Origin: Micavibrio sp.
GTDB lineage: Bacteria > Pseudomonadota > Alphaproteobacteria > UBA9219
NCBI GenBank assembly: GCA_020718105.1
Contig: DYDA01000011.1
Coordinates: 1-61,094 of the forward strand
Length of the DNA stretch: 61,094 bases
Direction: 5' to 3'
Below, piece by piece: positions 9,046 through 57,025 of this stretch. Both the position numbers and the translations under genes were made by a program. Under the pieces are notes generated by a model. The model made no database searches. It saw only the letters and a program-made list of their open reading frames with translations, and had not been told where the DNA came from. Numbering within the stretch: the stretch's first letter is position 1; each line of letters opens with the position of its first letter.

Positions 9046-9301
9046 TTCTATACTCAAAACAGTTTAGAAGTTGGCGTTGCTTTATCCGCAAGGGCGCTGG
9101 CGTCCCCTCCCCCTCGCGGGGAGGGATAGGGTGGGGGTGCTGCTTGGCTGAAAGCTATGGGGGGTTAGGAATAAATCCATTCGTTAGCCTCCGTCGCTCT
9201 CCCCCCCTTCTAGCCTCCCCCGCAAGGGGGGAGGAACACAATTGTCCTTGCAAAAACAGCGCGCCAAAAACCAACTTTTGAAGTGAAAAAAGCCTATACT
9301 A
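9046..9301. repeat. MITE-like element, copy A1
   Basis: A non-coding element of about 255 bp with imperfect terminal inverted repeats. The inner TIR part is AGTTTAGAAGTTGG at 9061-9074 on the left and CCAACTTTTGAAGTG at 9271-9285 on the right; CTATACT words lie outside both. Inside are two GC-rich hairpins (CCCCCTCGCGGGG and CCCCCGCAAGGGGG) and the words TTGCTTTATCCGCAAGG and ATTGTCCTTGC. The same parts occur in reverse at 56769-57021, and the left end of a third copy is at 61024-61094. It fills the gap before the DUF6489 gene. Confidence 0.7.
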
Positions 9302-46165: not shown

Positions 46166-46247
46166 CTTCCCTTCCCCCTTGCGGGGAAGGAAGCTTTTTC
46201 TTGGGCTTGCGAAGCAAGGCCTTAGAAAAAGCAGGAAAGGGGTTATA
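46166..46247 (+). repeat. Palindromic element C2
   Basis: Same structure as C1 in mnmE: CCCCCTTGCGGGG hairpin, GAAGG, then arms ending TTAGAAAAAGC, GGAAAGGGGTTATAA. It begins 15 bp after the sufB stop and is followed after 13 bp by the inverted copy C3. Confidence 0.8.
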
Positions 46248-46248
46248 A

Positions 46249-46791
46249 ATGATCAACAATGAGGATAACCCCCCACCTGAAAAATCTAAGGGTTTGCTTA
46301 TGCAAACCCAAGATTTTTCTTCCTCCCCCGCAAGGGGGGAGGCAGTCCCCGCAAAAAGGGAAACGAAGCGCTGGTGCTTTATAAAAGCCAAGCACAAAAA
46401 CAAAACTGAGGATTACGTTCTTGCACGACAGCTTAGGCGTAACGCGTCCCCAATCGAACGAAAACTGTGGGTGCGTTTGCGAGAAAACGCGAAGACCAAG
46501 GGATTTATGTTTCGTCGCCAGCATGCGATACATCCCTATGTTGCTGATTTTGCCTGTATGGCTGCTCGAGTGCTTATAGAAATTGACGGGAATTCCCATA
46601 ATGCGACAGAAACATATGATCATCAAAGAGAGGTCTTTTTGCAAAAACAAGGCTACAGCATTTTGAGATTCAGCAATAATGATGTTGTGAACAATACCGA
46701 GGGCGTTGTGCAGCGGATCATCTTGTGCGTTGAAGAGCGTCTAAACTCCCTTCCCCCTTGCGGGGAAGGCAAAAAAGGATGCAAACAATGA
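46249..46791 (+). CDS. DUF559 nuclease-like protein, insertion between sufB and sufC
   Basis: A 180-residue protein. Residues 60-155 form a DUF559 domain (very-short-patch-repair/PD-(D/E)XK-like): RRNASPIERKLWVRL, then FRRQHAIHPYVADFACMAARVLIEIDGNSH and GYSILRFSNNDVVNNTEGVV. VADFAC and IEIDG hold the likely metal-binding Asp/Glu. The first roughly 31 codons are translated from palindromic repeat C3, and the end SLPPCGEGKKGCKQ from a partial repeat at 46747-46768. The function may be DNA cleavage for repeat mobility, or it may be a domesticated invader. It is in the suf direction and cotranscribed. A second DUF559 copy is fused to sufT. Confidence 0.85.
   Translation: MINNEDNPPPEKSKGLLMQTQDFSSSPARGEAVPAKRETKRWCFIKAKHKNKTEDYVLARQLRRNASPIERKLWVRLRENAKTKGFMFRRQHAIHPYVADFACMAARVLIEIDGNSHNATETYDHQREVFLQKQGYSILRFSNNDVVNNTEGVVQRIILCVEERLNSLPPCGEGKKGCKQ
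46261..46342 (-). repeat. Palindromic element C3, inverted relative to C2
   Basis: Minus-strand copy of the C family: the CCCCCTTGCGGGG-type hairpin lies at 46322-46338 and the arms GAAAAATCTAAGGGTTTGC and GCAAACCCAAGATTTTTC enclose a short loop. C2 and C3 form a large inverted repeat around a 13-bp centre. Confidence 0.8.
46747..46768 (+). repeat. Partial palindrome C4 at the end of the DUF559 gene
   Basis: TTCCCCCTTGCGGGGAA hairpin only. It encodes LPPCGEG at the DUF559 C-terminus, 33 bp before sufC. Confidence 0.7.
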
Positions 46792-51020: not shown

Positions 51021-51160
51021 GATTCCCTCCCCCTTGCGGGGAGGGGTAGGGAGGGGGGCGTGACGCTAGGCAGAAGGCTATCCGGTCAGGACTAAAATCT
51101 GATCATGCACAACCCAGTCGCCCTCCCCCCCACCTAGCCTCCCCCGCAAGGGGGGAGGAA
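51021..51160. repeat. GC-rich double-hairpin repeat, copy A2
   Basis: Two hairpins, CCCCCTTGCGGGG (51025-51042) and CCCCCGCAAGGGGG (51141-51155), 100 bp apart. It resembles the core of the MITE at 9046-9301, but the CACTTCAAGAGTTGG terminal repeats are absent. It separates sufU from the DUF559-sufT gene. Confidence 0.7.
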
Positions 51161-51210: not shown

Positions 51211-51915
51211 ATGAGGCTAGAGAAACACAAAAACACATCCCATGATTACAAGAAGGCTAAAAAGCTTCGCAATGAGGCTTCACCTATCGAACGTAAATTA
51301 TGGGGCGTTCTTAAAGAATACGCCAAAGTAAAAGTGCTTAAATTCCGCAGGCAACATCCTGTGCATCCTTATGTAGTGGATTTTGCCTGTATGGCGGCGC
51401 GGGTATTGATTGAAATTGATGGGGATTCTCACGATGGACGTGAGGCCTATGACCAAAAACGAGAAGCTTTTTTGTGCCATGAAGGCTATAAAGTTTTGCG
51501 TTTTAGTAATCAGGATGTTTTAAAAAATGTTGAAAGCGTTGTGATGACTATTTTAGCAAAGACAGAAGAAAGGCTTGCTCTATCCCAGTCTCAACTCGCC
51601 GACGTGACCGAGCGTGTGATTGAGGCGCTGCGCGTGGTGTATGATCCCGAAATCCCCGTGAACGTGTATGATCTGGGCTTGATCTATAAAATTGACTTGA
51701 CGCCTGCTGCGGGGGATAAAATGGATGCGGCCATTGAAATGTCCTTAACCACCGCGAATTGCCCGATGGCGGATATGATTCCCGGCATGGTCTATGATGC
51801 TGTGCGTGATCGGATACCGGATCTTAACGAAATTAAGGTAAGCCTCGTCTGGGATCCGCCTTGGGATCCTTCGCGCATGTCGGACGACGCGCGTGCGATT
51901 ATGGATTTTTATTGA
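51211..51915 (+). CDS. sufT: DUF559-SufT fusion protein
   Basis: A 234-residue in-frame fusion. Residues about 20-120 are a DUF559 domain (RNEASPIERKLWGVL, FRRQHPVHPYVVDFACMAARVLIEIDGDSHDG, GYKVLRFSNQDVLKNVESVV), very similar to the copy at 46249-46791. From about 128 comes a MIP18/DUF59 SufT domain: TERVIEALRVVYDPEIPVNVYDLGLIYKI, then MSLTTANCPMADMIPGMV and the C-terminal VWDPPWDPSRMSDDARAIMDFY, with the conserved Cys and Asp residues of SufT. SufT helps Fe-S delivery to target proteins. A TTG at 51196 could give five more residues. The nuclease-like part probably arrived by insertion just before the sufT start. Confidence 0.9.
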   Translation: MRLEKHKNTSHDYKKAKKLRNEASPIERKLWGVLKEYAKVKVLKFRRQHPVHPYVVDFACMAARVLIEIDGDSHDGREAYDQKREAFLCHEGYKVLRFSNQDVLKNVESVVMTILAKTEERLALSQSQLADVTERVIEALRVVYDPEIPVNVYDLGLIYKIDLTPAAGDKMDAAIEMSLTTANCPMADMIPGMVYDAVRDRIPDLNEIKVSLVWDPPWDPSRMSDDARAIMDFY

Positions 51916-56388: not shown

Positions 56389-57025
56389 CTCTGGCGGAGT
56401 GGGGCAAAAAAGACGAGCCTTCCTGCCTTGGCCGAGATGATTGCGATGGTTGTTGGCGATTGCTTGCGGGAATCCGCTTGCACCCCATGACCTTGCCCTT
56501 TTCCTGTCGGAATATTTTCCGATGAAAGAAAAGCAACAAAATCGAAGTTAAACTAACGCTTGGCGCTGCGGGAATCAAGAGGCGTGTTTCTTGATTGAGA
56601 AAGAAAAAAGAAACCTCTTGAGGGGCGTGACCAAACCGCAACAGAAAGTGGCAGAAATGCCTGAATTATGGCATAGGGACGTGTTCATCGCCACATTTGT
56701 GCCTTAAAGAAAGAAGGTATAGCCCGTCCGCTTGAAAACCCGAAAAATTTTTCTCCGCCAAGCAGCATATACCCAAAACACTTCAAGAGTTGGCATCGTG
56801 CATGATGTTTCAGCAAGGACAATAGAGTCCCTCCCCCCTTGCGGGGGAGGATAGGAGGGGGGGGGAGCGACTGGGGTGCTTATGATCGAGTTTCATAACG
56901 ACCACAGACTTGACAGCCAAGCTTTACTCCCCCCTCCCTATCCCTCCCCGCGAGGGGGAGGGGACATCAGCGTCCTTGCGGATAAAGCAATCCCAACCCT
57001 TGAAGTACGAGGAGTATAGTATAAG
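56389..57025. other. Long pal-tolB gap, mostly non-coding
   Basis: Nearly 700 bp separates the pal start and the tolB stop. No supported gene is present. It holds the MITE copy A3 (56769-57021) and must contain the pal promoter, since the tolB terminator at 57026-57060 would stop readthrough. Confidence 0.6.
56769..57021. repeat. MITE-like element, copy A3
   Basis: Reverse-oriented relative of the copy at 9046-9301. CACTTCAAGAGTTGG (56780-56794) and CCAACCCTTGAAGTA (56993-57007) are its inner terminal repeats; TATAC-type words lie outside. The internal hairpins and the words AAGGACAAT and TTGCGGATAAAGCAA are shared. Length is about 253 bp. Confidence 0.75.

Follow-up and report, generated by a model that had tools for sequence, protein, structure and literature searches.

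In REPtrons, the palindromes on either side of a nuclease gene belong to that gene's own family: the enzyme is a RAYT (TnpA-REP), with an HuH-Y1 tyrosine active site, and its REP or REPIN palindromes lie mostly as inverted dimers scattered in the genome, with several families per genome and with enzyme lineage and palindrome type co-varying (PMC3116915, PMC6006769). The intrastrand-triplex repeats BoxC, PIT and TMECO consist of a C-rich arm, a G-rich arm, a TTA-like loop and a mirror G-rich third arm; they often occur as inverted pairs, multi-copy, intergenic and at variable sites, and Holder et al. considered their origin unclear, having seen no mobility functions around the motif (PMC4666352). 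Here we describe a DUF559 nuclease gene between sufB and sufC of Micavibrio sp. (assembly GCA_020718105.1, contig DYDA01000011.1, positions 1 to 61,094, the 61,094-nucleotide stretch that we call the window), together with the palindromes that flank it. DUF559 genes and their palindromes resemble REPtrons in this flanking, in the scattered inverted dimers, in the several families per genome and in the co-variation of enzyme lineage and palindrome type, but differ in that the enzyme belongs to the PD-(D/E)XK/EDxHD nucleases, and in that the palindromes are C/G hairpins of the triplex type, with a third, mirror arm, present also where Y1 transposases are absent. With a probability of about 0.6, we read DUF559 as a cognate trans-acting nuclease that would mobilise a family of mobile palindromes, much as in a REPtron with an unrelated enzyme; its bracketing by these palindromes makes it the leading candidate for the so far missing enzyme behind the spread of the long-known BoxC/triplex-type repeats.

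DUF559 genes bracketed by palindromes

The open reading frame (ORF) at 46249-46791 (+ strand, 180 aa) matches the DUF559 profile PF04480 with an E-value of 1.5e-34 and 118.6 bits, against a curated cut-off of 20.6 (domain 46420-46728). As a preliminary description of this sequence had noted, its start lies within two palindromic units in inverted order (46170-46342) and its end within a third palindrome (46749-46769, + strand). The left unit (46170-46247, + strand) comprises hairpin 1 (46170-46190, CCTTCCCCCTTGCGGGGAAGG), hairpin 2 (about 46193-46233) and a degenerate third arm (GGAAAGGGG, 46234-46242) that looks like it doubles as the ribosome-binding site of the gene. The inverted right unit (46268-46342, - strand), made up of a third arm (ACCCCCCACC), hairpin 2 (about 46282-46319) and hairpin 1 (46322-46342, CCTCCCCCGCAAGGGGGGAGG), is translated as N-terminal codons. 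The repeat-derived codons at this end number about 31, the figure given previously, if the ATG at 46249 is used, and about 14 with the ATG at 46300; no ATG lies nearer to the domain than the latter. The palindrome at the 3′ end overlaps the C-terminal codons, supplying not the last 8, as had been stated, but about 7 that are followed by 6 more. It had also been called partial; it consists of hairpin 1 only, and that hairpin is complete, though the G-rich third arm is absent.

The 12-mer CCCCTTGCGGGG from these units is found 11 times in the window at no more than one mismatch (0.62 expected) and 39 times exactly in the 1.91-Mb genome, where the copies are mostly paired plus/minus at 110-170 bp and the reversed control occurs 0 times. 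Shuffles and the reversed control rule out chance palindromes.

We assembled 112 DUF559 loci from 24 genomes of the family (16 with DUF559), 142 genomes of the class (51 with DUF559) and public contigs, and 106 of these could be tested for an inverted repeat joining both flanks (ungapped, score at least 30). Such a repeat brackets DUF559 in 82 of the 106. It joins 9/106 flank pairs taken from different loci, 1/96 windows shifted away from the gene and the two sides of 2/75 ORFs in the neighbourhood (Fisher p 1e-26 for 82/106 vs 2/75). The 82 genes are thereby bounded by terminal inverted repeats as in an insertion sequence, with varying arrangement: the palindrome is outermost, or innermost (L066, L190, L058 and L142), or a dimer stands beside the gene (genes 1 and 2 of this genome, and genome G022). 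In the most common arrangement the gene fills the spacer between two inverted units. Hairpins with a stem of at least 8 reach a density of 5-8.5/kb within 100 bp of the DUF559 domain and mostly 0-0.7/kb past 300 bp. PIN-domain accessory genes, taken as a control, have palindromes on both sides in 0/12 cases, which together with the neighbouring ORFs rules out a general clustering of accessory genes with palindromes. The preliminary description had proposed looking for further DUF559 genes in the genome, and held that the link would fall if they adjoined palindromes no more often than random genes do; the genome has three, all three abut palindromes, and the wider comparison agrees. Elsewhere, a single genome may hold up to 10 DUF559 hits.

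A unit is laid out as a C-rich arm, a loop, a G-rich arm, a short loop and a G-rich third arm mirroring the second (e.g. CCCTCCCCCTTGCGGGGAGGG TTA GGGAGGGGGG), a sequence design that places it in the published intrastrand-triplex motif class (BoxC/PIT/TM; PMC4666352). The strict triplex motif has a frequency of 1.30/kb near DUF559 vs 0.032/kb farther off (41-fold) and is found within 400 bp of 61/106 DUF559 loci; the units of gene 1 carry hairpin 2 in loop 2 and so fail the strict form. In one dimer type of the genome, that with the second hairpin in loop 2, the outer arms of the hairpin show 6 sequences over 18 units and are always exact complements; since the arms vary yet always pair, the structure is preserved while the sequence changes. 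Of the undescribed DUF559-palindrome system that the preliminary description had suggested, the repeats themselves are already described (PMC4666352), whereas their link to DUF559/YcjD, which sets the present analysis apart from earlier accounts of BoxC, PIT and TMECO, was not found in the literature (open-licence papers, no bioRxiv preprints, so that absence is not proof).

Palindromes of like design flank DUF559 in Deinococcus proteolyticus, Picosynechococcus PCC 7002, Neisseria gonorrhoeae and Sinorhizobium meliloti. The DUF559 gene of Escherichia coli is ycjD; it has sapF and fabI as its neighbours and is followed directly by copies of BoxC. A site covering most of the sapF-ycjD-fabI query is present in 3,333/5,426 E. 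coli genomes, and other strains have eefRABCD in place of ycjD (PMC12817139). In an even sample of E. coli, the median number of further BoxC places is 14 for chromosomes with ycjD (n=38) and 3 for those without it (n=21).

Rhizobium-specific intergenic mosaic elements (RIMEs; Osteras 1995, via PMC2573895) are, in that second-hand account, likewise palindrome-rich intergenic repeats of Rhizobiaceae, there given without an assigned enzyme. The dimers around a Sinorhizobium DUF559 gene look like them, by appearance rather than by a sequence match to RIME1. In this locus (L256, S. meliloti Ak57), DUF559 is flanked by palindromic units that form a 114-nt inverted repeat of 97-98% identity, and it adjoins an ISRm16 transposase.

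Palindrome types and dispersal

Palindrome type goes with the lineage of DUF559, not with the genome that hosts it. Similarity of palindrome ends grows with DUF559 protein identity (Mantel r 0.26, exceeding all 500 permutations), and within the family palindrome sharing has a median of 41 for the same DUF559 lineage in different genomes and of 23 for different lineages in one genome (p 0.0015). A single genome can illustrate this specificity: G035 (3.4 Mb, one contig) holds 305 CCCTC-N8-14-GAGGG palindromes, vs 27 in the control, and four dimer families, each matching the flanks of another DUF559 gene or gene pair. Among the matches listed, CCCTCCCT..AGGGAGGG pairs are mostly 101-104 bp apart, and the same type flanks L177 and L184; CCCTCCCGC..GCGGGAGGG pairs are 69-85 bp apart, CCCTCTCCCG..CGGGAGAGGG pairs 114-120 bp and CCCTCTCCCC..GGGGAGAGGG pairs 73-74 bp, and exactly these types flank L189, L141 and L180, respectively.

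Gene-less dimers have dispersed as whole units. The dimers of the Micavibrio genome are of two types, homologous end to end within each type (98% identity over 169 bp for dimers C23 and C34a, 90% for C14 and C22c), with flanks that are unrelated save for short other repeats. The dimers found within recG and mfd preserve the reading frame, in this respect like Rickettsia palindromic elements as described, which are kept in frame within genes. We know of no DUF559 link for the Rickettsia elements.

Insertion sites were compared across relatives, as the preliminary description had suggested, and empty sites were found at two places. DUF559 occupies the sufB-sufC site in six genomes, and in nine others just 4-55 bp separate the two genes; one of these nine is G020, the closest relative, with a gap of 5 bp. 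Whether the site was filled once or repeatedly is not decided by the tree test (AU p 0.45, favouring neither). At another site, a dimer of this genome is missing from four congeners (G018, G019, G021 and G022). The recG dimer was rejected as a clean empty site, in that relatives hold other, unrelated inserts there, and the apparent empty/filled pair among Sinorhizobium K101, C101 and M103 was likewise discarded, the length difference being an artefact of the locus ends.

The DUF559 enzyme and rival explanations

Among 101 DUF559 proteins, E31, D61, E72 and D74 are invariant and H78 is nearly so. For the AlphaFold model (pLDDT 91.8), structural comparison gives Z 14.6 with 3hrl, a gonococcal DUF559 structure, Z 12.6 with the homing endonuclease I-Bth0305I and Z 9.6 with Vsr, and I-Bth0305I is the closest characterised nuclease by sequence as well as by fold (E 5e-5). 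Because the active-site residues are invariant and the predicted fold matches I-Bth0305I and Vsr, we take the protein to be, very probably, a Vsr-like nuclease of the PD-(D/E)XK group (EDxHD) that is active; YcjD had been assigned to this superfamily in 2005 (PMC1189080). The fold and the EDxHD-type active site are shared with Vsr and VsrA, which differ in their proposed role, mismatch repair beside 5-methylcytosine, a palindrome link not having been considered there (PMC12907096). I-Bth0305I (PDB 3r3p) is intron-borne and has extra DNA-binding domains, unlike the DUF559 proteins here, which are mostly single-domain and palindrome-flanked.

The DUF559 system is not a RAYT, because the defining HuH/Y1 enzyme (PF01797) is absent and no GTAG-type tetranucleotide, the REPtron trait at the hairpin foot, was seen at the unit ends by inspection; what it does share with REPtrons is multi-copy flanking palindromes cognate to the enzyme lineage. 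A RAYT is also ruled out as the mobiliser in this genome, where no PF01797 protein (HuH/Y1 tyrosine transposase) was found; Y1 transposases are present in only 7/24 family genomes. The RAYT/REPIN-like pairing that the preliminary description had in mind is nonetheless supported by cognate specificity, by the dispersal of dimers as units and by the empty sites. We would envisage the following course of events. The palindromes would become single-stranded, on the lagging strand or in transcription, and fold into a hairpin or triplex, which the EDxHD PD-(D/E)XK nuclease would recognise and nick or cut at the foot; the dimer, set free or copied, would then be joined to DNA elsewhere, either between genes or in frame within one. 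Two inverted units make up a short gene-less dimer, spreading as a unit like REPINs, and the DUF559 gene has units of its own type next to it or on both sides, which is also the layout of a REPtron.

Several observations weigh against a mobilising role of DUF559. About a quarter of DUF559 loci show no clear inverted repeat. In the 24 family genomes, co-occurrence of the single 12-mer CCCCTTGCGGGG with DUF559 is not significant (p 0.10), because other lineages use other palindromes; two relatives in which no DUF559 was detected, G019 and G012, keep 14 and 10 copies. Phylogroup confounds the correlation of BoxC with ycjD in E. coli, and some 10 BoxC places are present in O157:H7, which lacks ycjD. 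Inspection of the dimer ends revealed no evident target-site duplication, the relatives being too distant for a base-level comparison. Caulobacter VsrA, itself a DUF559 protein, has been interpreted as a Vsr-like mismatch-repair nuclease (PMC12907096). Finally, recognition of the folded strand, cutting and joining, and hence catalysis of the movement, are steps that we infer from sequence.

Could DUF559 instead be a selfish gene of the homing type, which recognises existing palindromes or dimers and copies itself into or beside them by break repair, while the palindromes spread by other means? Its nearest characterised relative is a homing endonuclease, the commonest arrangement has the gene in the spacer as if inserted in a dimer, and genes 1 and 2 of this genome follow dimers of two different types. 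Against this stand the co-variation of palindrome type with DUF559 lineage and the spread of gene-less dimers as units, which would still need a mobiliser in a genome lacking Y1/RAYT, and we judge this explanation unlikely. Nor do we favour a nuclease in the service of the host, specific for mismatches or for structures such as triplexes and hairpins, and merely regulated by, or guarding against, the adjacent palindromes. The Vsr-like fold and active-site layout would suit such a role, as would the behaviour of Caulobacter VsrA, which is SOS-induced and causes DNA damage when the methylase is missing (PMC12907096). It leaves unexplained, however, the near-identical inverted palindromes on both sides, the presence in one genome of several lineages that each have a palindrome type to themselves, the genomes with up to 10 hits and the insertion between conserved operon genes, and appears rather improbable. 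That DUF559 genes land by chance beside palindromes that are terminators or recombination hot spots would fit with the often intergenic position of the palindromes and with the presence of other repeats, too, at the variable recG site; it is close to refuted by the neighbouring genes (2/75) and PIN-domain genes (0/12), and leaves cognate specificity unexplained.

A broader form of the mobile-palindrome reading, which we advance tentatively, is that DUF559/YcjD/VsrA defines a widespread class of bacterial mobile DNA, recognising folded hairpin-triplex ends and moving dimers, which would explain the BoxC, PIT and triplex repeats and probably the RIMEs; its transposition chemistry would be unlike the known DDE, HuH, tyrosine or serine recombinase types. 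If DUF559 does mobilise palindromes, it gains a function, and the REP/RAYT idea that palindromes have a nuclease residing among them extends to a second, unrelated enzyme class. The candidate cognate nuclease is present in E. coli K-12, which makes the question directly testable, and DUF559 proteins currently annotated as mismatch-repair enzymes may deserve a fresh look.

Further features of the window and its relatives

DUF559 gene number 2 (51214-51915, + strand; domain 51250-51561) lies directly downstream of a type I palindrome dimer without hairpin 2 (51023-51160, + strand), which has 89% identity over 136 bp to the C2 dimer on another contig. This gene has no stop codon of its own and reads on in frame into the downstream stretch, which we take to be DUF59/SufT-like; the insertion may have produced a gene fusion. 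Gene number 3, on contig 22, is located between two inverted units of the variant palindrome ACCCTCCCCTTGCGGGAGGGT with a second hairpin. Two gene-less type I dimers also occur in the window, at 9105-9234 and 56830-56962 (both + strand). Elsewhere in the genome, the flanks of the C23, C34 and C42 dimers (L028, L201 and L204) share short pieces of another repeat, some in reverse complement, and on contigs C6, C8 and C16 a palindrome is found at, or within 40 bp of, the first base, so that some joins may be assembly effects.

The recG stretch (L024, L246, L232, L236 and L230) has a different in-frame insert in each congener and is a hot spot for such palindromic insertions, with a triplex dimer here and repeats of the CGTC/'GTCATCGCGAGG...GGCGATCCA' type in G020 and G022. 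In G011 (contig 256, L112), part of the 5′ end of sufC is repeated upstream of the DUF559 element and the whole sufC gene follows it, so that the insertion is surrounded by a duplicated gene start. Another landing site is shared between hosts (L258 and L189): in Sphingomonas parapaucimobilis a DUF559 element is found with a gatB/yqeY-like gene on one side and dnaG on the other, and the element in G035 is preceded by a similar gene.
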